NCBI GenBank assembly: GCA_037447655.1
Contig: JBBHKE010000403.1
Coordinates: 190,501 to 254,500, forward strand
Length of the DNA stretch: 64,000 bases
Direction: 5' to 3'
Source: Zygnema cylindricum
Taxonomy: Eukaryota; Streptophyta; Zygnematophyceae; Zygnematales; Zygnemataceae
The translations under genes were made by a program, and so were the position numbers. Below are positions 7,105 through 64,000 of the stretch, one piece after another. Within the stretch, counting starts at the first letter, position 1, and each line of letters begins with the position of its first letter. Below the pieces are notes generated by a model. The model saw only the letters and a program-made list of their open reading frames with translations, made no database searches and was not told the DNA's origin.

Positions 7105-7366
7105 AGTCTGGAAGAGAGTTGGATTCCGGACAATAGTATGCTGAACCCCATAAAACGTTTCTCTTCTAGTAAACCGAAGTCTAAACACGGGATGCAACAA
7201 TTCGCGCTAAATGACGCGGTGACAATGTAACAGTTGACCTACGAGATAGACGTTAAAGGTGGATTATTTAGTGGAGTTGGTGCCCGAGCAAGGATAATAA
7301 GGGCGTTATGTGAATCAGTAAACGAGGACAAGAGGGTCGTTATGATGGATAGAATGTACACATGGG
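7105..7366 (+). pseudogene. piggyBac-type transposase, middle part (broken)
   Basis: This continues the transposase after the solo LTR. LEESWIP corresponds to the DES-MIP region around the first catalytic residue, where Asp is replaced. KPKSKHGMQQFAL fits the family's KP-K-GIK block. LFSGVGARARII is followed by VVMMDRMYT, which carries the second catalytic Asp. An in-frame TAA stands at 7228-7230. The piece ends at about 7366, where copia family A sequence begins. The next residues of the transposase are found 10.9 kb away at 18221. Confidence 0.8.
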
Positions 7367-7698
7367 TTGTGGATTTGAGGCAGCTAGTGCCTCTGAAGAA
7401 GAATAAGAAGCAGTAGCAGCAGCAGTTGCCATAATCATAATCAAAGTACAAAGAGGAAACTCTCACGAATACCCACAAATAACCAACTTCACAATGAAGC
7501 TCCAAGCAAATAAAACACACACTAGGTCTGCAAATTTCCACAATGAAGTAAATACACCAAAGAAAACACATGCAGAATTTTACACAATTCTGCCAAAAGA
7601 TCAGAATGATCTTATAATTAAAAAGACCCAAAAATTGCTTCGCATTTTTTCATACAAAGAAAAACCTAACTTCCAAAATATTCTAAGTCCAACATATA
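7367..7698 (-). mobile_element. Copia family A unit A0: gag start, leader and LTR part
   Basis: Read on the minus strand, this is the start of family A gag (ATG followed by an Ala/Ser-rich stretch, cut after roughly 20 codons), its leader and the inner part of the LTR. It is collinear with 11935-12238 and 17215-17520. The rest of gag-pol is absent because the copy joins piggyBac directly. The LTR is interrupted by the N gap. Confidence 0.8.
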
Positions 7699-7708
7699 NN
7701 NNNNNNNN
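7699..7708. other. Assembly gap (10 N)
   Basis: Ten N. By comparison with the intact A1/A2 junction, the left edge corresponds to about 12238 and the ordinary sequence resumes (about 7785) at the equivalent of about 13042. Roughly 0.8 kb, the outer LTR plus the RNase H tail, should lie here. The gap length is therefore nominal. Confidence 0.95.
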
Positions 7709-7783
7709 ACCTGGAGTTTATCACACCACACTGTTGGTCCGTCGATATCGCTAACGTAGATTGGGTTCAGTAGTGAAGTTTTC
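7709..7783. other. Exact mirror-image copy of 7835-7909
   Basis: Reading this segment backwards, without complementing, gives 7835-7909 exactly over 75 bases. It starts at the first base after the gap. It replaces the genuine end of the A1 RNase H region and produces a meaningless C-terminus. It is most likely an assembly or gap-filling artefact. Confidence 0.95.
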
Positions 7784-9289
7784 CTGTTCATCACCTTCTC
7801 TCTTACAAAATGCAGCTTGATATCAATGTGCTTGCTTTTGAAGTGATGACTTGGGTTAGATGCAATCGCTATAGCTGCCTGGTTGTCACACCACACTATT
7901 TGAGGTCCAGATTGCATGAAATGAAGTTCTTGAAGGAGAGACTTTACCCAAAGTAACTCCTTAACAGTTGAGCTGGCTGCCATGTATTCAACCTCCATTG
8001 TAGACTGAACTGTGACTTTCTGAAGCTTGCAGCTCCAGCAGCATGTTCCACTTCTAATCTTCAAAATGAATCCGGTAGTGGAGTGGCGGCTTGGCATGTC
8101 TCCGTAACTCGCATCGCTCCAAGTCTAAATTTTTACTTCACCTCCACCGAGAGCAAGTCGCAAATTCCGTGTCCCTGCAAGATACCGCAGAACCCTCTTT
8201 GCTGCCTCCCAATCCGATCTCCTCCGATTTTGTAAACTATGGCTTAAAGCACCGACTGCTGCCGCAATATTCGGACGTGTGCAATTCATGAAGTAGATTA
8301 GACTGTCGAGAATATGACGATATGGAATGGCAACCATAAAATCTGCCTCCCATGATTCCAAGGTGTCATCAAAAATGACTCCTCCATCGGTCTCCGTGCC
8401 TTCCACCTTTTGCTTAAATTCCATGGGAGTGGCACTTCCCTTGGCCTCTCCCATGCCAAACTTTTCAAGCATGTTCCCAATCGCTTCCCGCTGCGTTAGA
8501 TAAATCATTCCCCGATGTCTATCCCTTTCTACTTGAATTCCAAAAATGTACTTTGCCTCCCCTAAATCTTTCATCTCAAATCTGGAATTCAAGGCTGCCT
8601 TTATTTTGTTAATCTCATTTAATAACTTACTTAGTAGCATCAAATCATCTACATACACGGCAATGTAAATAATCCCATCTTCCCCTTCCATAACATAGAC
8701 TGAGTGATCCGAACTAATCCTCACAAAGCCGAGACTAGTTAGAAACTCATCTAGTTTCAGATTCCACTGACGTAGAGCCTGCTTCAGTCCGTACAAGGAT
8801 TTCAACAGCTTACACACCAGATTTTCTTTTTCGGTCTCTGTATACATTTCAGGTTGTTTTATATAGATCACTTCCTCTAAATTTCCATGCAAAAAGGTTG
8901 TCTTAACATCCATTTGATGTAATTCCATATTCTCAATGGCTGCTAAAGACAACAAAATTCTAACAGTTGGAAAACGGAGAACCGGTGAGAAAGTCTCTTC
9001 ATAGTCAATTCCCTCCTTTTGACTATAGCCTTTTGCAACAAGCCTAGCCTTATATCTTTCAATTGAAATATCCGGATTCAGCTTAACTTTAAAAACCCAC
9101 TTACACCCGATGGCTTTCCGATCCGGTGGAAGCTCCACAAGCTCCCAAGTTTGAGCCTCCATAATCGATCTCATTTCATCATTCGCCGCAGAAATCCATT
9201 GATCCTTTTCCGGGGCTGAAAAGGCTTCCCGTATGGTGACCGGCTCTATCGTAGTGGCAAAAAATAGAGCATGTTCCACCAGTTCACTT

Positions 9290-9384
9290 TGCAGTGTCGC
9301 AGCATCGCAGCGTCGTAGCAACATCGCAGCTTTGCAACTTCGCAGCTTCGCAGTTTCGCAGTTTCGCAGTTTCACAGTTTTCAT
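9290..9384. repeat. 8-bp minisatellite inside A1 pol
   Basis: Imperfect repeats of CGCAGCTT / CGCAGTTT with an 8-bp period, lying in the linker between integrase and RT. Because 8 is not a multiple of 3, changes in copy number shift the pol frame. The A2 copy (14544-14658) has a different repeat composition. Confidence 0.8.
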
Positions 9385-9496
9385 CTAGATCTAACGTGCT
9401 GACAGAAAGGAGAGCAGCTTCGCAGTTCCGCAGCCTGGTGCTTTGCCTTCTTCCCCCCGGAAAATTTGAGGAGAACTGTTGGAGCCAACCGTGTCC

Positions 9497-9531
9497 GCCG
9501 AGGAGGAGGAGGAGGAGGAGGAGGAGGAGGT
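9497..9531. repeat. GGA triplet run (polyproline on minus strand)
   Basis: An uninterrupted GAG-GAG-GAG run encodes about ten consecutive prolines in the A1 integrase-RT linker. The A2 counterpart at about 14776-14822 is longer and interrupted. Confidence 0.85.
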
Positions 9532-11971
9532 GACCGAGTAGGTCCTACCGGCTGAATCACTGAAATGTCCAGAGATGATCCTCCGCTGACAGATGAGGAA
9601 GAACTTGTCGCAGATTGAAGAGGAACATTTTCAAAAATTACATATTCTTGAATTTTGGCATTTTTCTCAGAATCTGTCATGCCAAAAACATCAACCGAGT
9701 GACTCTCTTCCTTAACTTGAATATTCCTACCAGCTTGAAAAGTGTTTTTATCCGTATTGTTACCCTATAGCCTACGGAATCATCATCATATCCCATAAAA
9801 ATTTCAAGAACGGATTTAGGATGAAGCTTAGAAATATAAAGATTGTCTAAAATAAAGCATTTGCTACCAAAAACCCGAAAGTGACTCACATTGGGTTTCT
9901 TTCCGGTCCATACTTCATATGGTGGTTTTCCTTTTACTGCTCTAGTTTCTATTCTAATCCTAATATAAGATGCACAGGAGAAAGCTTCACCCCAAAATTT
10001 AAAATCTATCCCTTTATCCAACATCATAGATTATACACTTTCCGTTAAGGTTCGGTTAAGTCTTTCCAATACTCAGTTTTGCTTCGGAGTATAGGGAACT
10101 GTAAATTGACGAGAGATGCCATTTTCTTTTAAATAATATGAAAATGCATTAGAAATATATTCTCCTCCGTTGTCGGATCGAAGGGAGAGAATTGGCTTCT
10201 TATGAAGTTTTTCCGCCCAAATCCGAAAGTGCTTCAAGTGGGTAAACACTTCACTTTTCTCCTTCATAGAGTAAACTTTGTTGTATTGGGAGAAATCTTT
10301 TGTAAAAGTGACTAAAAACCGGCTGCCACTAAGTGAAGGGACTTTTGACGGTCCCCACACATCTGAATGAATTACTTGCAATAAATATGTGGCCCGGTTA
10401 TCCGCGGTCTGAGGTAGGGGCAGCTTGTGAAGCTTTCCCGAAACACAGCCATCACATACATGAGAATCTTTTTGTCCTAATTTGACACCATCTTTCATAT
10501 TTTGCTTTACCATTTTATCAAGCTTTTCATAATGAACATGACCGAGCCTCTTATGCCACAAAACATTTTCCGGAAGGACAGTGGAGTATGCAAATTCAAT
10601 TTCATTAGCCAAGTCTATCTAGTACAACAAGTTTGGGCCTCTAGTTCCTACCAAGGCTACTCTCCCATCTTTGCTTACTACCTTTTTCCCATTCTTTTGC
10701 AAAATTTCAAAACCTTTCATTTCAGCTACTAAAGTGGAAAACAATTTTTTTTTTAATTTTGGAATATAGAGAACATCATGTAAGGTCCTCTTTACAATCT
10801 GACCATTGATGTCACATTCTAACTCCACGCTTCCCTTTGCCGTAGCTTCCACACCATTGTCATCTGCATAATAAATCCGACGAGTGGGAATTGGATTGAG
10901 GGTTTTGAAGTAAGCCCGGTTGCCGCACATGTGGGAAGAGCACCCAGAATCCATAATCCACCCGTTCTCTTAAGATCCTTCCATGAGATCTTTCGCAAGA
11001 GCAAAGAATTCATCGTCATTCGATTGCGGAAATCTGACCTCATTGTCCTTTTCTTCCGTGGGATTATCTTGCTCCATCTCGTCGATTGCAAAAAAAACCG
11101 CATTTTTAACCGGCAGTTTTGATGCCGGAAATATAGGTGATGAAGTCTCCAATCGCACCTTCCATCACGCACGATAAATTCCTGTTTCACATGCTTTTAT
11201 AAATGCCGGACAGAGCCGGAAAACATGACCTTGACCAAAACAATAGACACATCTATCAAATTGCTTATAATTTGGATTAGGCGAAAAATTCTTATTTCCT
11301 GAAAATCCAGGCGGCCTAAATGTCTGAGCATTGTAAGCTACTGCTGTATGTCCTCCATTCAATGCTATGTTGTTTCCCTCTTCCTCTAGAATGTAAGCTT
11401 CAACTACAGCTATATTCCATTTACTCTTCTCTAACCTCTTTAATTGTTCCGAGGCTCCTTTATATTCAATAAGAAGCCCTCTCATTAAAATCATTGCATA
11501 GGGAGGAAAATTCCCCCCGGAACATGCATTTTCCGATAACAAAAGTTTGAAACCACTACAGTATGATTTCATATCACCCCCGGTATATTTATAATCCCAA
11601 ATTTTTCCAGCAGTTATAACCTCATTTTGCTCAGTAGCTATGACATGAGATTCTCTCAAACTCTTCCATAATTCAGATGCCGTAGTGATACTGATATACG
11701 TCATGTTTAAATCTTCCAACAAAATAAACTTGAGAACATGTAAAGCATCCTCATTTTTCTTTTCAAAATCTGGGTCCGTATCGAAAAGAACACTAGAGAC
11801 CACATCATACAACTTTACTTGCTTAAGGTAAGATTTAGTCAAATCAGCCCAATGCATATATTTTTCCCCATTAAACACCGGGATCCGTGAGGACGAGCCC
11901 GTGACATGTGGATTTGAGGCAGTTGGTGCCCCTGAAGAAGAAGAAGAAGTAGCAGCAGCAGCAGTTGCCAT

Positions 11972-12902
11972 AATCACAATCAAAGTACAAAGAGGAAACT
12001 CTCACGAATACCCACAAATGACCAACTTCACAATGAAGCTCCAAGCAAATCAGACACACACTAGGTCTGCAAATTTGCCACAATGAAGAAAATACACCAA
12101 AGAAAACACATGCAAAATTTCACACAATTGTGCCTAAAGATCACAATGATCTTATAATTAAAAAGAACCAAAAACTGCTTCGCAGTTTTTCATACAAAGA
12201 AAAACCTAACTTCCAAAATATTCTAAGTCCTACATATACAAGTGAGCCTACAACTGATCTAAACCGTACCACAATTACCGTGGTCCACCGCTACACTAAA
12301 TCTTTACCAAACCAAACCTTCGCCGTCTGCCGTACAAATTATTTACATCAATCTTTAACTCTAGCCGCCGCTAAAGTGTGCAGCAAAAGTTCTTTCACCG
12401 AAATGACGGCGCACTTCAATATTTCACTTTCAAAAATGACGGCGAACTCCGTCCGCCGTCCACGCATTTGTTCCCACTGAAGATGAACCTCTACGTGTAA
12501 ATCGAGTCACCAAATGACTAATACTTCGTCGTCCAGATCAACCAACCTTGACTACCCCCACATAGCGACACGTGTGCCTGAGATGTACCAAGTCTGTGTA
12601 CTCTCTTTGGAGTTACATAAACACTAAATCCTGCCTACGATAGTTTAGCTTTCATACGAACTGCTATGGCTGCGGTGCTCTATCTGCGCAGCTGTAATGT
12701 TTAAAGCAGCGCAACTGTTTACTCAAGCTGCTATGACTGCGGTGTTCTACCAGCGCAGGTGCGACATTAGAGCAGCGCAGCATGGCAGCATAACAACGAA
12801 GTGTAGAGAGGATTACAGGTTTCCAGCTGCGACGTCAGACTTAGCGCAGCATGGCAGTTTAGCAACGAGATATAGAGAGGACTGAAGGTTTCCAAAACAA
12901 CA
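11972..12902 (-). mobile_element. Family A LTR plus leader, shared by A1 and A2
   Basis: The LTR begins at 12902 on the minus strand with TGTTGTTTTGGAAACC, directly after the A2 polypurine tract (AGGGGAG, read from 12909 to 12903). It therefore serves as 3' LTR of A2 and 5' LTR of A1. A1 gag begins at 11971. The LTR/leader boundary could not be fixed because every copy is followed by gag; no standard primer-binding site was seen. GCAGCGCAGC-rich repeats occupy the outer part (about 12660-12880). Confidence 0.75.
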
Positions 12903-15900
12903 CTCCCCTAAACCTTTAGACTCTCTCAGTCACTAAGTCCACATTCCTCTGTACAAAATTTCAATTCAGGTGCAGGTAAAGCCTTTGTCATCATATCTGC
13001 TACCATCATCTCATCCGGCATATAACTTAGTTTCAAAATTGTGTTCATCACCTTCTCTCTTACAAAATGCAGCTTAATATCAATGTGCTTGCTTTTGAAG
13101 TGATGACTTGGGTTAGATACAATCAGTATAGCTGCCTGGTTGTCTCACAACACTATTTGAGGTCCAGATTGCATGAAATGAAGTTTTTCAAGGAGAGACT
13201 TTACCCAAAGTAACTCCGTGACAGCTGAGCTGCCTGCCATGTATTCAACCTCCATTGTAGACTGAGCTGTGACTTTCTAAAGCTTGCTGCTCCAAGAGCA
13301 TGTTCCACTTCCAATCTTCAGAATGAATCTTGTAGTGGAGCTGCGGCTTGGCATGTCCCCGTAACTCGCATCGCTCCAAGTCTGAATTTTTACTTCACCT
13401 CCACCGAGAGCAAGTCGCAAATTCTGTGTCCCTGCAAGATACCGCAGAACCCTCTTTGCTGCCTCCCAATCGGATCTCCTCGGATTTTGTAAACTCTGGC
13501 TTAAAGCACCGACTGCTGCCGCAATATTCGGACGTGTGCAATTTATGAGTAGATGAGACTGCCGACAATCTGACGATATGGAATGGCAGCCATAGAATCT
13601 GCTTCCCATGATTCGAAGGTGTCATCAAAAATGACTCCTCCATCGGTCTCCGTGCCTTCCACCTTTTGCTTAAATTCCATGGGAGTGGCACTTCCCTTTG
13701 CCTCTGCCATGCCAAACTTTTGAAGCATGTTCCCAATCGCTTCCCGCTGCGTTAGATAAATCATTCTCCGATGTCTATCCTTTTCTACTTGAATTCCAAT
13801 AATGTACTTTGCCTCCTCTAAATCTTTCATCTCAAATCTGGAATTCAAGGCTGCCTTTATTTTGTTAATCTCATTTAATGACTTACTTAGTAGCAGCAAA
13901 TCATCTACATACACGGCAATGTAAATAATCCCATCTTCCCCTTCCATAACATAGATTGAGTGATCCAAACTAATCCTCACAAAGTGGAGAATAGTTAGAA
14001 ACTCATATAGTTTTAGATTCCACTGAAGTGGAGCTTGCTTCAGTCCGTACAAGGATTTCAACAGCTTATAGTCCATATGTTCTTTTCCGGTCTCTACATA
14101 CATTTCAGGTTGTTTCATATAGATCACTTCCTCTAAATCTCCATGCAAAAAGGCTGTCTTAACATCCATTTGTTGTAATTCAATATTCTCAATGGCTGTT
14201 AAAGACAACAAAATTCTAACAGATGGAAAGCGGACAACCGATGAGAAAGTCTCTTCATAGTCAATTCCCTCTTTTTGACTATAGCCTTTTGCAACAAGCC
14301 TAGCCTTATATCTTTCAATTGAATTATCCGGATTCAGTTTAACTTTAAAAACCCACTTACACCCGATGGCTTTCCGATCCGGTGGAAGCTCCACAAGCTC
14401 CCAAGTTTGAGCCTCCATAATCGATCTCATTTCATCATTTGCCGCGGAAATCCATTGATCCTTTTCCGGGGCTGAAAAAGGCTTCTTGTATGGTGACCGG
14501 CTCGATCGTAGTGTCACAAAATAGAGCATGCTCCACCTGTTAACTTCGCAGTGTCGCAGCATCGCAGCTTCGCAGCGTCGTAGCAACATCGCAGCATCGC
14601 AGCTTCGCAGCGTCGTAGTAGCTTCGCAGCTTCGCAATTTCGTAGTTTCACAGTTTTCATCTAGATCCAGCGTGGTGATAGAAAGGAGAGCAGCTTCGCA
14701 GTTCCGCAGCCTGCTGCTTTGCCTTCTTCCCCCCGGAAAATCTGAGGCTAGAATTGTTGGAGCCAACCGTGTCCGCCGAGGAGGAGGAGAAAGAGGAGGA
14801 GGAGGAGGAGGAGGAGGAGGTGACCGAGTAGGTCCTACCGGCTGAATCACTGAAATGTCCGGAGATGATCCTCCGCCGACAGATGAGGAAGAACTTGTCG
14901 CAGATTGAAGAGGAACATTTTCAAAAATTACATATTCTGGAATTTTGACATTTTTCTCAAAATCTGTCATGCCAAAAGCATCAACCAAGTGACTCTCTTC
15001 CTTAACTTGAATATTCATAGCAACTTGAAGAGTGTTTCTATCCGTATTGTATACCCTATAGCCTACAGAATCATCATCATATCCCATAAAAAGTCCGGGA
15101 ACGGATTTGGGATGAAGCTTAGAAATAGGAAGATTGTCTAAAATAAAGCATTTGCTACCAAAAACCCGAAAGTGACTCACATTGGGTTTTTTTCCGATCC
15201 ATACTTCATATGGTGTTTTTCCTTTTACTGCTCTGGTTTCTATTTTATTCCTAATATAAGATGCACAGGAGAAAGCTTCACCCCAAAATTTAAAATATAT
15301 TTCTTTATCCAACATCATTTATTTTGCACTTTCTGTTAAGGTTCGGTTAAGTCTTTCCGATACTCTGTTTCGCTCCGGAGTATAGGGAACTGTAAATTGA
15401 CGAGAGATGCCATTTTCTTCTAAATAATATAAAAATGCATTAGAAATATATTTTCCTCCGTTGTCGGATCGAAGGGAGAGAATCGGCTTCTTGTGAAGTT
15501 TTTCCGCCCAAATCCGAAAGTGCTTGAACTGAGTAAACAATTCACTTTTCTCCCTCATAAAGTAAAATTTGTTGTATCGGGAGAAATCATCTGTAAAAGT
15601 GACTAAAAATTGGCTGCCACTAAGTGAAGGGTTTTTTGACGGTCCCCACACATCTGAATGAATTACTTGCAACAAATCTGTGGCCTGGTTATGTGCGGTC
15701 TGAGGTAGGGGCAGCTTGTGAAGCTTTCCCAAAGCATAACCATCACATACATGAGAATCTTTTTGTCCTAATTTGACACCATCTATCAAATTTTGATTTA
15801 CCATTTTATCAAGCCTTTCATAATGAACATGACCGAGCCTCTTATGCCACAAAACATTTTCCCGAAAGACACTGGAGTATGCAAATTCAATTTCATTAGC

Positions 15901-17268
15901 CAAGTCTATCAGGTACAACAAGTTTGGGCCTCTAGTTCGTACCAAGGCTACTCTCCCATCTTTGCTTACTACCTTTTTCCCATTCTTTTGCAAAATTTCA
16001 AAAACTTTCATTTCAGCTACCGAAGTGGAAAACAAATTTTTCTTAAATTTTGGAATATAGAGAACATCATGTAAGGTCCTCTTTACAATCTGACCATTGA
16101 TGTCACATGCTAGCTCCACGCTTCCCTTTGCTGTAGCCTCCACACTGTTGTCATCCGTATAATAAATCCGACGAGTGGGAATTGGATTGAGGGTTTTAAA
16201 GTAACCCCGGTTGCCGCACATGTGGGAAGAGCACCCAGAATCCATAATCCACCCGTTCTCTTGAGGTCCTTCCATGAGTTTTTTCGCAAGAGCAAAGAAT
16301 TCATCGTCATCCGATTGCGGAAATCTGACCTCATCGTCGTTTTCTTTCGTGGGATTATCTTGCTCCATCTTGTCGATTGCAAAGAAAACCACATTTTTAA
16401 CCGGCAGTTTTGATGTCGGAAATTTAGGTGATGAAGTCTTCGATCGCACCTTCCATCTCGTACGATAAATTCCTGTTTCACATGCTTTTATAAATGCCGG
16501 ACACAGCCGGAAAACATGACTTTGACCAAAACAATAGACACATCTATCAAATTGCTTATAATTCGGATTAGGAGAAAAATTCCTATTTCCTGAAAATCCA
16601 GGCGGCCTAAATGTCTGAGCATTGTAAGCTACTGTTGTATGTCCTCCATTCAATGCTATGTTATTTCCCTCTTCCTCTATAATGTAAGCTTCAGCTACAG
16701 CTATATTCCATTTACTCTTCTCTAACCTTTTTAATTGTTCCGAGGCTCCTTTATATTCAGTAGAAAGCCCTCTCATTAAAATCATTCCTTGATGATAGGG
16801 AGGAAAATTCCCCCCGGAGCATGCATTTTCCGATAACAAAAGTTTGAAACCACTAAAGTATGATTTCATATCACCCTCGGTAAATTTATAATCCCAAATT
16901 TTTCAAGCAGTTATAACCTCATTTTGCTTAGTAGCTATGACATGAGATTCTCTCAAACTCTTCCATAATTCAAATGCCGTAGTGATACTGATATACGTCA
17001 TGTTTAAGTCTTCCGACAAAATAAACTTGAAAACATGTAAAGCATCCTCATTTTTCTTTTCAAAATCTGGGTCCGTATCCAAAAGAACACCAGAGACCAC
17101 ATCATACAACTTTACTTGCTTAAGGTAAGATTTAGTCAAATCAGCCCAATACATATATTTTTCCCCATTAAACACTGGGATCCGTGAGGGCGTACCCGTG
17201 CCTTGTGGATTTGAGGCAGTTGGTGCCCCTGAAGAAGAAGAAGAAGCAACAGCAGCAACAGTTGCCAT
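12903..17268 (-). pseudogene. Copia family A unit A2 gag-pol (best-preserved A copy)
   Basis: A single gag-pol frame runs from ATG 17268 to about 13543 with only two in-frame stops: a Gly-to-TGA change at about 16900 in gag, and TAA at 15319-15321 in integrase. It contains a CCHC knuckle (CVYCFGQSHVFRLC, about 16500-16545), protease MDSGCSSHMC (about 16236), the integrase HHCC region and HSDVWGPS, RSDNGGKY where GGEY is usual (about 15455), RT YVDDLLLL (about 13900) and RNase H with SDASYGD. A frameshift near 13545 separates RT from RNase H, and the CDNQ motif is broken by a stop near 13145. A polypurine tract follows the RNase H end at 12903-12909. The copia type and domain order are clear. 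Confidence 0.9.
14544..14658. repeat. 8-bp minisatellite inside A2 pol
   Basis: Repeated CGCAGCTT / CGCAGCGT / CGCAGCAT octamers between the integrase and RT segments, translated on the minus strand as a Cys/Arg/Ala-rich stretch. Here the frame stays open, unlike in A1. Confidence 0.8.
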
Positions 17269-18220
17269 AATCAGAATCAAAGTACAAAGAGACACTCTCA
17301 CGAATACCCACAAATGACCAACTTCACAATGAAGATCCAAGCAAATCAAACACACACTAGGTCTGCAAAATTTCCAGAATGAAGAAAATAGACCAAAGAA
17401 AACACATGCAGAATTTCACACAATTGTGCCAAAAGATCACAATGATTTTATAATTAAAAAGCCTTAAAAACTGCTTCGCAGTTTTTTATACAAAGAAAAA
17501 CCTAACTTACAAAATATTCTAAGTCCTACATATACAAGTGAGCCTACAGCTGATCTAAACGTACCACAATTATCGTGGTCCACCGGTACACTAAATCTTT
17601 ACCAAACCAAACCTTCGCCGTCTGCCGTACAAATTATTTACATCAATCTTTAACTCTAGCCGCCGCTAAAGTGTTTAGCAAAAGTTCTTTCACCGAAATG
17701 ACGGCGCACTTTAATATTTCACTTTCAAAAATGACGGCGAACTCTGTCCGCCATCGACGCATTCGTTCCCACTGAAGATGAACCTCCACGTGTAAATCGA
17801 GTCACCAAATGACTGCGTATTTCGTCGTCCAGATCAACCAACCTTGACTACCCCCACATACCGACACGAGTGCCTAAGGTGTACCAAGTCTGTGTACTCC
17901 CTTTGGAGTTACATAAACACTAAATCGTGCCTACGACAGTTTAGCTTTCATACGAACTGCTATGGCTGCGGTGCTCTACCTGCGAAGCTGTAATGTTTAA
18001 AGCTGCGTAGCTGTAATGTTTAAAGCAGCGCAACTGTTTACTCAAGCTGCTATGACTGCGGTGTTCTACCAGCGCAGTTGCGACATTAGAGCAGCGCAGC
18101 ATGGCAGTATAGCAACGAAGTATAGAGAGGTTACAGATTTCCAGCTGCGACGTCAGACTTAGCGCAGCATGGCAGTTTAGCAACGAGATATAGAGAGGAT
18201 TGAAGGTTTCCAAAACAATA
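17269..18220 (-). mobile_element. Family A 5' LTR plus leader of A2
   Basis: Collinear with 11972-12902. The outer end at 18220 reads TATTGTTTTGGAAACC, so the terminal TG is changed to TA. It borders the piggyBac relic directly, and this is the right end of the A insertion. No target duplication can be tested because the left end (A0) is truncated. Confidence 0.75.
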
Positions 18221-51790: not shown

Positions 51791-51800
51791 NNNNNNNNNN
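51791..51800. other. Assembly gap (10 N)
   Basis: Ten N, directly followed by the mirror-image segment. Confidence 0.95.
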
Positions 51801-52081
51801 TTAACATTATATCCAAGCAAAATTTATCACACCTCATGCCTGCTGCAAGTTGGCACGTTTTGACATGAAAAAATTCATTTTTTCATGTTTATCACTAAAT
51901 TATGTTAGCGCGAGCGTGCACTTTAGCCTGATTCGCTTTTAAGTTAGTGTAGCTTTTTTTCGGCAAGCGTATTCCCACGCAGAGATACATGAAGTTTGAA
52001 TCTCTAAAAAAAAACAAAAAATCGCGTCTAGGCCGCCTGGGCCTAAAGCCCACAGGGATACACATGGTTTGCTTTAACAGT
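51801..52081. other. Exact mirror-image copy of 52097-52377
   Basis: Read backwards without complementing, these 281 bases equal 52097-52377 with no mismatch, including the homopolymer runs (seven T, nine A, six A). The 15 bases between the arms (52082-52096) are ordinary. The right arm has true relatives on the other strand (near 59150-59230), so the left arm is the abnormal one. Confidence 0.97.
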
Positions 52082-52096
52082 TCGTCACGCCCTAAG

Positions 52097-52377
52097 TGAC
52101 AATTTCGTTTGGTACACATAGGGACACCCGAAATCCGGGTCCGCCGGATCTGCGCTAAAAAACAAAAAAAAATCTCTAAGTTTGAAGTACATAGAGACGC
52201 ACCCTTATGCGAACGGCTTTTTTTCGATGTGATTGAATTTTCGCTTAGTCCGATTTCACGTGCGAGCGCGATTGTATTAAATCACTATTTGTACTTTTTT
52301 ACTTAAAAAAGTACAGTTTTGCACGGTTGAACGTCGTCCGTACTCCACACTATTTAAAACGAACCTATATTACAATT
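52097..52377 (-). repeat. Copy of the dispersed repeat (source of the mirror)
   Basis: The minus strand reads TTTTTTAGCGCAGATCC, CCCGGATTTC and GGTGTCCCTATGTGT, which also occur at about 59175-59220. It is thus a genuine member of the dispersed repeat. Confidence 0.7.
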
Positions 52378-53063: not shown

Positions 53064-53065
53064 TA

Positions 53066-53292
53066 CAGTACACCGTGAATCGCTATTAGGGTTAATGTTC
53101 TTTTCGCCACTTAAAACATCTTTTATCCGTACACACTTGTCGGAATCTGGATTTGACAGTTGCGATTGAAAGCTAACATTCTCAGCTTCCGATTGGCGGT
53201 CTCAAACTGAAAAGCCAACAATTGTGTACAGAGAAAAGATGTTTTAAGTGGCAAACAAAACATTAACCCTAATAGCGATTCACGGTGTACTG
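53066..53292. mobile_element. Tc1/mariner-like MITE, copy 1 (227 bp)
   Basis: Flanked by TA on both sides (53064-53065 and 53293-53294). Terminal inverted repeats of about 50 bp start CAGTACACCGTGAATCGC and end GCGATTCACGGTGTACTG. There is no coding capacity. TA duplication and a CAGT start are typical of Tc1/mariner-derived MITEs. Confidence 0.85.
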
Positions 53293-53294
53293 TA

Positions 53295-54017
53295 GTCAAA
53301 CGTGGTCACTACAGTACAGGACTGTACTTTTCCATCAACTCATACGGTCGTACAAGATTTCGAAAAGATTTTGCGTGACTCAAATAGTTAAATTTGTACA
53401 TTTGCGAAGAAATGTTTGAAAAAAAGTGATATGTAACATTTTTTTGTGCCAATCACGTTCTTACCTCCGCTTCACCCGGCGCATTGGCCGGATCGCCACT
53501 TGTCGTTTGTGCTCGCCTCACGAACTGACGCAAATGGAGCACCATTTCCAGTTACATAACTGGAAAGTACAAAAACTGACGAGCTGAGCCAATGGATATC
53601 CACCCTAACCTCGGTACAGTTCAAAAAGCAATGGTTTTGAAATGATTGAAAAGGTCGGCATGTACTTGAAACTTAGAGAAAAAACTTTGTTTTTTAGCGC
53701 AGATCGGGGGGGGGGGGGGGAGGGGGAGAGGGAGAGGGGGAGGGAGAGTCGGAGGAGGGAGACAAATAAATCAATTGCAAACTCAGTGGTAAAAGAATAA
53801 TACTTCATCAAGAATAAAACTTGTAAAAACTAAGAGTAGCAACTGTCGATAACTAGGATCGAAAACAAGTCAAAAGTAATAATACAATAGCAATAATAAA
53901 AACAAATTATTGCAAACATATATTGAAAACAAATAAAACGCTGGCTCAAATTTCTTCCTCACTGGCATAGTAAAGGTGGTGTAATTTTATTGTTTATATT
54001 TGCTGTGAAAATGAAGG
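53295..54017. other. No gene; G-run
   Basis: Non-coding by inspection. Includes a run of 15 G at 53706-53720 within a purine-rich GGGAGAGGG tract to about 53765. Confidence 0.45.
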
Positions 54018-54039: not shown

Positions 54040-54417
54040 CAGCAACATGACAATGACAATGACAGAACCATGGCAATTACCATGACCATGACAATGTTTG
54101 TGACAAATGACAATGAAAATGACGGCAATGCCACTGACAATGTCAATGACAATGACAATAGAAATGGAAATGGAAATGACTATGCCAATGACAATGATAA
54201 TGACAATGAAAACGACTCATGGAGATGACGATGCCAACACTGATGCCAACGCCAATGACAGTGGAAGGACATTGATTACAAAGAAGACAATGACAATCAC
54301 TACACTGACAATGGAATGACAATGACAATGAAAATGAAAATGACAACGACAATGACAATGACAATGGCAATAACAATGACAATAAAAATGACGGTGACAA
54401 GGACAAGGACAAAGGAC
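54040..54417. repeat. Degenerate AATGAC hexanucleotide satellite
   Basis: Nearly 400 bp of imperfect AATGAC units with GGCAATGAC- and GAAAATGAC-like variants. Apparent Met/Thr-rich frames are a by-product. It abuts the left copy of the 1580-bp direct repeat. Confidence 0.9.
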
Positions 54418-54577
54418 AATGGAAAAAAAACCATGAAAACTTGCATTGTTCTGAACCACTTAGAAAAAATATTCAAACATGTTCATAAGAAACTTATGCA
54501 TTACTGCACAAAAAATCAAAATTGTTGCGTCGGAGAACCAAATTAGCGCGGATGCAATTGTTTCTCACCCTGGTTTC

Positions 54578-54626
54578 AGACTCACCAGCCTGATTGGACG
54601 GAACCATCCCTAGTATTTTGTATCAA
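54578..54626 (-). pseudogene. Diverged duplicate of the end of the translocator exon
   Basis: The minus strand reads a degraded version of the exon 1 end (TCCAATCAGGCTGGT against TCCAATCAGGTTGGT) about 100 bp downstream of it. A local duplication of the exon end plus donor site is the simplest reading. Confidence 0.5.
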
Positions 54627-54716
54627 AAAAAACTAGGAACAAAAAAAATCCAAGCATGTTTTAAACATACAAGTGCTGTACGGAAATATCAACATTAGTA
54701 CGGATGATGTACCAAC

Positions 54717-54907
54717 CTGATTGGATAGGACCAGCCGTAGAGTTTTGCATCCAGTATATACTTATTGTAAATAATGACTGCAAAGCTGAGAGAAATCCAA
54801 ATAATGACATAAAAGTAACTCACTAGAGCAGATCCTAAAAGAGATTGTTTGCCGCCGGACATCTCAGATTTTGCTATGGCTTGTACACTTTTTATGGCTT
54901 TATCCAT
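54717..54907 (-). CDS. First exon of a TPT-family sugar-phosphate/phosphate translocator (copy 1)
   Basis: ATG at 54907 opens 63 codons plus two bases, ending at a GT donor (AG before GTTGGT). The segment [25 protein letters not shown] followed after a few residues by YGWSYPI matches the conserved first membrane segment of plant probable sugar phosphate/phosphate translocators of the drug/metabolite transporter superfamily, where the next residues are usually SLTMIHM. These proteins have about ten membrane helices in Golgi or plastid-type membranes; only the first is encoded here. No second exon was found to the left, where the hexanucleotide satellite lies, so this may be an orphan exon. The substrate cannot be told. 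An identical copy lies 8003 bp to the right. Confidence 0.75.
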
Positions 54908-54915
54908 GGCTTCTA

Positions 54916-54980
54916 CTAGGGTTTTCCTGGGAGTTTTACAGGTTATTTATAGTTTATTTATAGTAATAGGGTTTTACCTC
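54916..54980 (-). promoter_or_regulatory. Two telo-box-like AAACCCTA motifs upstream of the exon
   Basis: Minus-strand AAAACCCTA occurs near 54916-54924 and 54966-54975, just upstream of the ATG. Such motifs are common in plant promoters and 5' leaders. Function here is inferred only from position. Confidence 0.45.
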
Positions 54981-56447
54981 CCAGTTTTCACTAGGATTGT
55001 TACTAAGGTTTTAAAAAGGGTAATAATAATAGCTTATAATAGCTTTATTGCAGAACGTTGGACATCTTTTGATCCATGGTATTACTTAAAAGCAGAAACC
55101 CTAAAAAAAAGTCAAAAAATGTCTTAAAAACTCCTAAAGAATACTAAAAAAAGAGTAGGAAAACTAAGAAAAACACTACAAAACACTGAAAAAAGAGTGG
55201 ACAAGGTTAAGAAACGACAAACTGTAAAAGATTATAATTTGCTGAAAAAAGGAAGTACTTTGAATTAAAATCAAAAAATCTTGAGTAAAAACAAACAAAA
55301 ACGGAAAAATAACAGATATGGTTGTAACGGATAAAATGTACACTGAAACGCACGTGAGAACAGGAAAACAAAAAAAAATGTGACTTATTTTTGGTCCAAA
55401 GTACAAATGGGCCTGGAATCTATGTAATACCGTACGTCATTATTGAGCATAGGTATTTTCGCATGTGCTAAAGTTATAGTTATTTTCTGTCGTTTTCCTC
55501 CATAACTTAGAAAAAAACGAGAAAATCCGCAGCCGTACCAAAAAATAGAAATTTCCACCGTACAGGTTGCGTTACCCTGAAACTTTATACATACAGTAGT
55601 TTGTCGTCTAGCGCGATATAATTTGACGTTTAGCGCATTTCGACCCACTTTCGCGTCCTTTCAACACATGTTCAAACTTTACATCAAATCGCCTCGCGAG
55701 GTGACTTGAAATAAAGTCCAATAAAGTGAGCGAATAGGCAGACACTTTCGCACGTGTCTGCATTTTTTTACATTTTTTGTGCGCTGAGTACCAAAAAGAA
55801 ACACACTGCACGTTTCCAGCATGTGCGTAATGTTTTGCGTGCGCTGATCCGTACAGGGGGCGTCTCTCTCAAAAGCACGTGTCTTCACACATACGGCGTA
55901 TGAAAAACATTGGCCACTTGTCGGCAAGTGGGAAGACGATAAACGAAACCGCAAATTCTGTGCGACAGCGAAAGGTATTTAGGGTTTCGACACGTCGACA
56001 ATGTGGCGTACGGACATTACGAAGTCACAAAAATTGTACAGCGTGCGGAGAAACGCCTCAAATTGAAGGCGAGTGGAAGTTTCGCCTCATTTTATGTACC
56101 ACTTCATCTGTCACAATTCTTCGTACACGTCTACGTAAGTCACTTTTTTAAGTGACATGTTATTTGCGTGTACATTTGAATGCTCTGAAAGTTGTACGGA
56201 GAATATTCGCTAAAAAAAAAAGTAACAAGACTAAGTTTCGGTTACATGCGAAAATACCCTGGCAACGACGTAGTTACTTAAGCGTGTGACGATTGTATAC
56301 GCTGACAATGCCCGTGACGGCTATCGACGTCTACAATCTGTGATGACGCACGTTTTTTTTTGTAGCATCTTGTGACGTCGCATGAGTTTTCGTGACATTG
56401 TAGACGTACCGCCATCCAGTCTGTGCCCTTTTACGGTTGAAGAAGAT

Positions 56448-57401: not shown

Positions 57402-57897
57402 GCATTTTGCCTTTGCGTCGCTTCTCCGCTCGACGTGAAATGGGATCGGAATCTTGAGACCCCTGGCAAAATAAAATCCGTAACCGGCGCAAACGGACAA
57501 AACTTAACAAATGTGTACTTTGCCTCGTCATACCTGAACGCAAACGGACAGAAAATAACGAATAGTGTACCTTTTGCCGTCGATTGAATTCGTTTGAAAT
57601 TTTTGTAATTTTTTTTACACGTGCTGTGTTCCTATTTGCTTTTTCGAACACACTTTGTTTTAAAACACATCGTCACTGTTTTTTAAAGAAAAGTTTGAAG
57701 ATGACGTTTTTTGGCATGGCCGTGGGTCTAACAACAAAAGACGATAACATGTAGTACATTCTAAATTCAATGATGACGCAAAATGTACTTCTCTCTTTTT
57801 CATTTTTTTTGTACGGCAGAAACTTACGCGGTACGGCTCTATGTTTTTCAGGAAAACGACAGAAAAAAACCCTTACTTAGGCACATGGAGACGCACC

Positions 57898-58099
57898 CTT
57901 AGTGTCAATGTTTTTTTCGCCACTTAAAACATTTTTTCTTCGTATACATTTGTCGGATTTTGGATCTGACGGTTGCGATTGAAAGGTATGAATTTCAGCT
58001 TCCGATTGGCGGTCTCAAATTGAGAATCTGACAAGTGTGTACGGAGGTTGTTTTAAGTGGCGAAAAATTATTAGTCCTAATAGCGATACGCGGTGTACC
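57898..58099. mobile_element. MITE copy 2 (diverged)
   Basis: Shares CGCCACTTAAAACAT, the TTGCGATTGAAAG middle and CCTAATAGCGATACGCGGTGTAC with copy 1. The left end is degraded, joined to the dispersed repeat end CCCTTAG. Confidence 0.7.
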
Positions 58100-58929: not shown

Positions 58930-59149
58930 CTTTCGACTGACTGAGAAAACGACAAAAATCGTTAGTAATTTTGGCCAGAAATTTTGGCGTACAAAAATTA
59001 TTGCCTTGTCACACCAAAAAATCCCCGATGACCAAAAACAGATTTGAAACTTTGGGGAGAGTACACACGAAAGTGTACCTATCATTTGTAGAATTAACCA
59101 TTCTAATTTCAACCCAAAATTATGACTTAAGGTACGGCGCCATGTACTT

Positions 59150-60371
59150 GTAACTTAGTGAGCTTACTTTGTATTTTAGCGCGGATCCGTCGGATCCGGA
59201 TTTCAGGTGTCCCTATGTGTTTGCTCGAAATTGTTACTTAAGTTTCTGACGACTGTATACGTCGACAACACCCGTGACGGATGTCACCGTGTTCAATTTG
59301 TCTTTACCGCACCATATTTTTTCGAAACTTTTTAAAGCCTTGTTGTTCAAATCGATTTTTTCCTTTTTTGCGATTGAAACATATAATTCGTGACTTTTGA
59401 AAAAATTGCAAAAAATCGTGATGTACTTTTTGTCCGGTAAACTGAACGGCTAATTTACGGAAAGTGTACGGTATTTTACGATAGCTGTATAATTTTGTAC
59501 GATAAATGTACGGAATTTGACGAAAAGATACGTTGCACTTCGTAGTACTTTCTGTCTGGTAATCTGAACATAAATTTTACGGAAATATACGGAATTGTAC
59601 CAAAAATGTACGGACTATTACGAAAAGATACGGAAAATGTACGAAAAATTGTACAAACTGCGGTATATGTGAAATTTATTTTTGTTTACATGTACGGAAT
59701 AGTACGGACAAAAATTCATTAACGATTTTTACGATTTTAAAGGTTCAATGCGTTTGTTACGTATTATTCGTCGCGATTCAATCGTTCGCACTAAAATCTG
59801 TGAACAACTATGTTTTGAAGCGCCGCAAGACGCATCGTAATTTTTGAAACGATTTGGCATGTCGCATGTCATTGCGTGACATCGAAGACGTATAACCTTG
59901 CAGACGTGGCTGTACGACATGCCTTTGCGTAAACCTCTCCTGTTCGGCCGCCATGACTTCGCAAATTTTTCACCTTTACGTGATATGACACTGCACCGTC
60001 GAGACCCCTTCAAACAAAAAACCGTACAAAGCGCATGCGGACAAAAATGAACAGCCCTGTACTTTTTTCAGTCGTCAAAAACTTTTGAAAAAAAATCACG
60101 TGGGAACATGTTTTCCTATTTGTGTAAACGATTCTACTTTGCTTAAAACACATTGCTGATATGGTTTATGATAAGTTTGAAGATGACGTGACACTGGGTC
60201 GAAAAAACACAAGACAAATTTTCGTACATACTAAGTTCGAGAAATGACGCAAATTGTACTCTACAAAATTGCCATTTCTTCGTACGGTTTAACTTAGGCG
60301 GTACGGCGCTAAGTTTGAAAGGAAAACGACAGAGAAAAACCCGAACTTAGCCACATGGGGCCGTACCCTTA
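59150..60371 (+). repeat. Dispersed repeat copy b
   Basis: Begins with TTTTAGCGCGGATCC and GGTGTCCCTATGTG (also at 52097-52377, inverted) and ends CCCTTAG next to MITE copy 3, as copy a ends next to MITE copy 2. Confidence 0.65.
59423..59666. repeat. 122-bp duplication rich in GTACGGA words
   Basis: GTACTTTNTGTCNGGTAA recurs at 59423 and 59545, a 122-bp period. The units are diverged and full of TACGGAA/TGTACGG words continuing to about 59720. Confidence 0.75.
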
Positions 60372-60384
60372 GTCCTAACAATAC

Positions 60385-60607
60385 TACTCCGTGTATCGCT
60401 ATTAGTGTTGATATTTTTTTCGGCGCTTAAAACATCTTTTCTCCGTACACATTTGTCCAATTTTCAATTCAAGACCGTCAATCGGAAGCTGAGAAACTTA
60501 CCTTTCAATCGCAAACTTCATATTTAAAAACCGACAAGCGTGTATGGAGATAAGCTTTTTAAAGAGACGAAAAATACATTAACACTAATAACGATTCACT
60601 GTGTAGT
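60385..60607. mobile_element. MITE copy 3 (opposite orientation)
   Basis: Ends CTCCGTGTATCGCTATTAGTGTT and AACACTAATAACGATTCACTGTG. The centre is the reverse complement of the centre of copy 1. Confidence 0.75.
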
Positions 60608-62339: not shown

Positions 62340-62420
62340 AAAGAAAAAAAAGAGGCAAAATGTTTGAGGATGAAAGAAAAAAAGACAAAACGTCGGGGAG
62401 GAAGAAAGAAAAAAAAGGAA
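62340..62420. repeat. GAAA-rich purine tract
   Basis: Runs of GAAAAAAAG and GAAGAAAG end exactly where the right copy of the direct repeat begins. Confidence 0.7.
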
Positions 62421-64000
62421 AATGGAAAAAAAACCATGAAAACTTGCATTGTTCTGAACCACTTAGAAAAAATATTCAAACATGTTCATAAGAAACTTAT
62501 GCATTACTGCACAAAAAATCAAAATTGTTGCGTCGGAGAACCAAATTAGCGCGGATGCAATTGTTTCTCACCCTGGTTTCAGACTCACCAGCCTGATTGG
62601 ACGGAACCATCCCTAGTATTTTGTATCAAAAAAAACTAGGAACAAAAAAAATCCAAGCATGTTTTAAACATACAAGTGCTGTACGGAAATATCAACATTA
62701 GTACGGATGATGTACCAACCTGATTGGATAGGACCAGCCGTAGAGTTTTGCATCCAGTATATACTTATTGTAAATAATGACTGCAAAGCTGAGAGAAATC
62801 CAAATAATGACATAAAAGTAACTCACTAGAGCAGATCCTAAAAGAGATTGTTTGCCGCCGGACATCTCAGATTTTGCTATGGCTTGTACACTTTTTATGG
62901 CTTTATCCATGGCTTCTACTAGGGTTTTCCTGGGAGTTTTACAGGTTATTTATAGTTTATTTATAGTAATAGGGTTTTACCTCCCAGTTTTCACTAGGAT
63001 TGTTACTAAGGTTTTAAAAAGGGTAATAATAATAGCTTATAATAGCTTTATTGCAGAACGTTGGACATCTTTTGATCCATGGTATTACTTAAAAGCAGAA
63101 ACCCTAAAAAAAAGTCAAAAAATGTCTTAAAAACTCCTAAAGAATACTAAAAAAAGAGTAGGAAAACTAAGAAAAACACTACAAAACACTGAAAAAAGAG
63201 TGGACAAGGTTAAGAAACGACAAACTGTAAAAGATTATAATTTGCTGAAAAAAGGAAGTACTTTGAATTAAAATCAAAAAATCTTGAGTAAAAACAAACA
63301 AAAACGGAAAAATAACAGATATGGTTGTAACGGATAAAATGTACACTGAAACGCACGTGAGAACAGGAAAACAAAAAAAAATGTGACTTATTTTTGGTCC
63401 AAAGTACAAATGGGCCTGGAATCTATGTAATACCGTACGTCATTATTGAGCATAGGTATTTTCGCATGTGCTAAAGTTATAGTTATTTTCTGTCGTTTTC
63501 CTCCATAACTTAGAAAAAAACGAGAAAATCCGCAGCCGTACCAAAAAATAGAAATTTCCACCGTACAGGTTGCGTTACCCTGAAACTTTATACATACAGT
63601 AGTTTGTCGTCTAGCGCGATATAATTTGACGTTTAGCGCATTTCGACCCACTTTCGCGTCCTTTCAACACATGTTCAAACTTTACATCAAATCGCCTCGC
63701 GAGGTGACTTGAAATAAAGTCCAATAAAGTGAGCGAATAGGCAGACACTTTCGCACGTGTCTGCATTTTTTTACATTTTTTGTGCGCTGAGTACCAAAAA
63801 GAAACACACTGCACGTTTCCAGCATGTGCGTAATGTTTTGCGTGCGCTGATCCGTACAGGGGGCGTCTCTCTCAAAAGCACGTGTCTTCACACATACGGC
63901 GTATGAAAAACATTGGCCACTTGTCGGCAAGTGGGAAGACGATAAACGAAACCGCAAATTCTGTGCGACAGCGAAAGGTATTTAGGGTTTCGACACGTCG
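62421..64000. repeat. 1580-bp direct repeat, right copy (cut by window end)
   Basis: Same sequence as 54418-55997 as far as read, offset 8003. The true right boundary is outside the window. Confidence 0.95.
62720..62910 (-). CDS. First exon of a TPT-family translocator (copy 2)
   Basis: The same 191 bp as 54717-54907, with ATG at 62910 and the GT donor at 62719-62718. The downstream context on the minus strand differs after about 300 bp (GAAA-rich tract and the unknown possible exon, instead of the AATGAC satellite). The two copies therefore cannot both sit in their original gene context. No second exon was recognised here either. Confidence 0.75.

Follow-up and report, generated by a model that had tools for sequence, protein, structure and literature searches.

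Exact letter-for-letter mirrors at both N gaps of a 64,000-nucleotide stretch and their probable origin in the processing of gap edges

Introduction

How can a stretch of DNA be followed, after a short centre, by the same letters read backwards on the same strand and not complemented? This question is raised by positions 51801-52377 of a stretch of 64,000 nucleotides, the whole of which was analysed here and is called the window. An initial annotation had described at this locus a perfect 281-bp mirror with a 15-bp centre, the left arm of which begins at the first base after ten N, and had named as the likely cause an error of gap filling or scaffolding in which sequence was reversed but left uncomplemented. 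We compared the arms letter by letter, searched the window for further mirrors, and compared each arm with its relatives in ordinary orientation.

Results

Exact mirrors at the right edges of both gaps

The locus was examined by direct letter comparison. The segment 52097-52377 and the segment 51801-52081, reversed without complementing, were identical at 281 of 281 positions, and the perfect mirror around a centre of 15 bases is therefore borne out. The centre, 52082-52096, is not its own mirror. There is no outward extension of the repeat, since its left end abuts the N run at 51791-51800, which agrees with what had been stated about the first base after the gap.

The whole window was also searched against its own reversed text (E 1e-3), and a second exact mirror, absent from the initial annotation, was detected at 7709-7909 (mirror 2; the mirror at 51801-52377 is called mirror 1). 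Its left arm, when reversed, equals its right arm at 75 of 75 positions, and the two arms are separated by a centre of 51 bases. At this threshold mirror 2 was the sole self-mirror besides mirror 1. The remaining rows of the search were the left arm of mirror 2 against a sister copy of the locus and two matches in complement only, which are accounted for by the relatives of mirror 1 described below.

Only two N runs are present in the window, each of ten N, and at both of them (2/2) an exact mirror begins at the next base on the right edge. In the 500 bases to the left of each gap, no mirror match was found (E 1e-3). When the two mirrors are combined, 356 of 356 letters are identical between the arms. 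For comparison, exact mirrors in 20 order-2 Markov simulations of the window reached no more than 16-18 bases. In the window itself, mirrors 1 and 2 are followed in length by an exact 28-base pair consisting of GGA repeats and then by exact pairs of 27 bases, one of which pairs the left arm of mirror 2 with the sister copy, the rest being GGA repeats as well. Because the mirrors stand at the right edge of both gaps, the pattern is the one that would be expected from a program that edits gap edges. The coordinates of the features are listed in Table 1.

Table 1. Positions of the two mirrors, the adjoining gaps and the sister copy in the window
Feature	Position	Strand	Description
Ten-N gap 1	51791..51800		
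Left arm, mirror 1 (probably false)	51801..52081		backwards text of 52097-52377; 281/281
Centre, mirror 1 (15 bases)	52082..52096		putative true start of the right-hand contig
Right arm, mirror 1 (probably genuine)	52097..52377		ordinary relatives at 59131-59220 and 53660-53711
Ten-N gap 2	7699..7708		
Left arm, mirror 2 (false, as judged from the sister copy)	7709..7783		backwards text of 7835-7909; 75/75
Centre, mirror 2 (51 bases)	7784..7834	-	Copia coding sequence, judged genuine; putative true start of the right-hand contig
Right arm, mirror 2 (judged genuine)	7835..7909	-	Copia coding sequence
Sister copy	13042..13166	-	shows the normal orientation and how the sequence normally continues

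Retrotransposon context of mirror 2

The element that contains mirror 2 is a minus-strand retrotransposon of Copia type, one of several in tandem. Beside the mirror, RVT_2 (PF07727) was found in the ORFs 8125-9384 (E 6e-75) and 13543-15318 (E 8e-72). In the Copia-type elements RVT_2, SH3-like, GAG-pre-integrase and Pol_BBD scored above their cut-offs, the last two within 15319-16869, where rve (31.5 against a cut-off of 32.6 bits) and Retrotran_gag_2 (22.1 against 27) were both just below theirs. Among the best 120 of 7671 protein matches, the names given were mostly those of flowering plants, but they also included Phytophthora ramorum and a metagenome record labelled gammaproteobacterial; identities were 33-54% over the aligned part. 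The presence of Copia-type elements suggests that the window is eukaryotic.

Over 7356-47959 as a whole, the minus strand carries several Copia-type elements, arranged in tandem or nested. Neighbouring elements are 88-93% alike at offsets of about 5.3-5.9 kb, and LTR-like stretches are apparently common to the neighbours.

The sister copy distinguishes the two arms of mirror 2

On the minus strand, the centre and the right arm of mirror 2 translate to GPQIVWCDNQAAIAIASNPSHHFKSKHIDIKLHFVREKVMN, which we take to be the RNase H region of a Copia element. The segment 7785-7909 aligned to the sister copy at 13042-13166 with 95.2% identity over 125 bases, and the alignment does not stop where the right arm ends but runs on, pairing 7785-12900 with 13042-18218. 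At the other side, the homology to the sister ends at the border between the centre and the left arm. The ungapped identity to the sister was 119/126 to the right of this border, as against 17/75 to the left of it. When the left arm was aligned to the sister with gaps, 186 of 500 shuffles of the arm itself scored as high. After reversal, the left arm matched the sister at 13092-13166 in 70 of 75 positions, the same as the right arm.

Since the left arm matches the sister solely when it is reversed, and the homology breaks at its border, it was derived letter for letter from the right arm. The arm is identical to 7835-7909 at all of its 75 positions, as against 70/75 to the sister at 13092-13166, and this difference indicates that its source was its own neighbour and not another copy of the family.

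The same border is seen in the reading frame. The minus-strand frame that reads ...SKHIDIKLHFVREKVMN diverges from the sister at this point, where the sister continues with TILKLSYMPDEMMVADMMTKALPAPELKFCTEECGL, a continuation that looks like the C-terminus of a Copia protein. Further upstream, a stop codon interrupts the frame of the sister itself. The frame of mirror 2 stays open across the 75-base left arm with unrelated residues, and no stop marks the break. On the evidence of homology, comparison with the sister shows the left arm to be the false member of mirror 2.

The reuse of 20-mers in the window was counted for the same arm. None of its 56 20-mers recurred outside the arm in the direct, the reverse-complement or the complement-only sense (0/56 in each case), and the reversed 20-mers gave 64 matches. 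The 8 matches beyond 56 are the number expected from the exact match of 27 bases to the sister.

The sister copy also provides a view of what gap 2 may hold. The left flank of the gap, 7356-7698, has one homologue at 17192-17534 (90%) and another, matching from 7368 onwards, at 11907-12238 (94%). In the sister, about 800 bases (12238 to 13042) lie between the homologues of the two flanks of gap 2, and 663 of the 805 bases of 12238-13042 align to 17534-18218 at 92%. This interval appears to be the sort of repeat from which gaps result, and it may be called LTR-like by its position and recurrence only. If the arrangement at gap 2 is the same, the true sequence there would be an LTR-like repeat of roughly 800 bases, as against the 10 N and 75 letters that now occupy the place.

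Relatives of the arms of mirror 1

The right arm of mirror 1 has ordinary relatives in the window at E values up to 0.01. A reverse-complement match was found at 59131-59220 (82%, E 5e-21), a second one at 53660-53711 (83%, E 1e-9), and a weaker direct match at 57859-57919 (E 3e-4). The alignment with 59240-59131 enters the centre of the mirror, as far as 52093. At E 0.01, no ordinary relatives of the left arm were found in the window, its own internal hairpin of 26 bases excepted, which is common to both arms. The earlier remark that the right arm has relatives near 59150-59230 and the left arm has none holds in this search.

Outside the left arm, its 262 20-mers recurred in the window neither directly (0/262) nor as reverse complements (0/262), and the reversed 20-mers gave 262 matches. 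One of the 262 was reused in complement only, which is most likely explained by the reverse-complement relative of the right arm at 59131-59220. No relative in the window extends across the boundary between left arm and centre, or across the far end of the right arm. The assignment was therefore made by analogy with mirror 2 and from the relatives of the right arm, and both point to the left arm of mirror 1 as the probable false one.

The direction of the arms was also compared by composition. With models of order 3, 4 and 5, the right arm scored above the left in 6/6 comparisons, although too weakly to be decisive; this test favours the true direction in 77, 80 and 84% of 224 ordinary windows, and its training set for mirror 2 included the sister copy.

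Discussion

The left arms of both mirrors are almost certainly software artefacts of gap-edge processing and not real DNA. The suggestion of a gap-filling or scaffolding step that reverses without complementing is supported by these results, and it has become much stronger because a second case exists at the only other N gap, on the same side, and because the sister copy tells which arm is false.

A simple series of steps could give both mirrors. The genuine right-hand contigs would start at the first base of each centre, at 52082 and 7784. A computer step working on the letters of the final assembly may have aimed to extend the right-hand contig leftwards into the gap, using a string that straddles the contig start with an overhang of h letters and an overlap of h+c letters (h=281 and c=15 for mirror 1, h=75 and c=51 for mirror 2). 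This string, of 577 or 201 letters, would have been reversed as plain text, and its first h letters placed between the N run and the contig. With p as the start of the centre and the string covering p-h to p+h+c-1, the positions p-h to p-1 carry the text of p+c to p+c+h-1 backwards in both mirrors. Within the class of artefacts, we lean towards this reversal of a single string.

Alternatively, a routine meant to extend the contig to the left, with its anchor 15 or 51 bases (c) within the contig, may have stepped inwards and not outwards for h letters and prepended each of them. Such an inward walk reproduces both mirrors exactly, giving the same letters as the reversal of a single string, and needs no overlap that is at least as long as the overhang. 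The two cases hold no evidence against it and do not distinguish it from single-string reversal; we consider it possible, but on balance doubtful. Among titles and the beginnings of abstracts, no published description of an assembly program with such a fault was found, and the papers matched by their wording concerned codons, influenza haemagglutinin and reporter assays.

Errors of related kinds are familiar in assemblies. False gap fills in draft assemblies also place wrong sequence at a gap, but the error here is a pure text reversal of the adjoining contig. In fold-back (inverted-repeat) assembly chimeras, the end of a contig carries a copy of the sequence next to it, in the form of the reverse complement. 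The mirrors resemble these chimeras in having the neighbour's copy at the end of a contig, but their arms are not reverse complements. An inverted repeat was rejected for both loci, as reverse-complement 20-mers outside the arms were 0/262 and 0/56.

It is very improbable that the fault arose at the level of the reads, from a nanopore molecule that moved backwards and was called as the natural sequence followed by its reverse. A backwards passage through the pore would yield a reversal without complement, but the identity of the arms at all 356 positions and the location of both mirrors at the right edge of ten-N runs are against it. In addition, one aberrant read should be lost when the consensus is made, and pore levels that are read backwards should not decode as a clean reversed sequence.

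Both mirrors would be real if a polymerase or repair route had copied DNA with reversed polarity. Both arms are present in the given sequence, and a failure of the assembler at the junctions, which would then have been marked with N, would also explain the contact with the gaps. Nevertheless, the mirrors coincide with the two N runs and only at their right edges, the arms do not differ at all, and the sister locus has other sequence at the same place, which leaves such copying with a minute probability. Published ideas such as nucleotide-exchange RNAs do not concern the edge of a gap.

H-DNA and other polypurine mirror repeats have mirror symmetry within a single strand in common with both mirrors, and long examples exist. 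In PMC11879447, H-DNA is characterised by an AG/CT content of at least about 90% and a spacer shorter than 8 bp, and the longest mirror repeat of the human T2T genome has arms of 797 bp and a spacer of 1 bp. As this repeat is H-DNA, according to the same paper, it is no precedent for a mirror of complex sequence. Real long mirrors of this kind were rejected for both loci as a reading of minute probability, since the right arms of mirrors 1 and 2 have purine fractions of only 0.48 and 0.47 and contain unbroken purine or pyrimidine runs of at most 9 and 5, the centres of 15 and 51 bases are too long, and the arm of mirror 2 is complex protein-coding sequence, in which a mirror by low-complexity expansion is not expected.

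The artefact at the gap edges has no significance as biology and a small one as data hygiene. If other gaps of the assembly carry such arms, plausible but non-existent sequence would be scattered through it, and false arms, having no relatives in ordinary orientation, could pass for orphan or species-specific sequence. A scan for the pattern is easy: the few hundred bases that follow each N run on its right need only be compared with the same bases read backwards.

Other features of the window

A direct repeat of at least 1587 bases, 54411-55997 and 62414-64000, reaches the end of the window; its copies are 8003 bases apart and differ by one mismatch (54417). It may represent the two LTRs of an element that inserted very recently or else a duplication made in assembly, and no ORF of at least 150 aa was found between the two copies. 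Scans of the window for tRNA genes and for Rfam families gave 0 genes and 0 matches, respectively. An imperfect palindrome of 231 bases at 53064-53294, 80% identical to its own reverse complement, is MITE-like and has two further copies in the window, at 57899-58098 and 60385-60605. Tandem arrays are located at 44-650 and 1054-1359, with periods of 209 and 63 bases.
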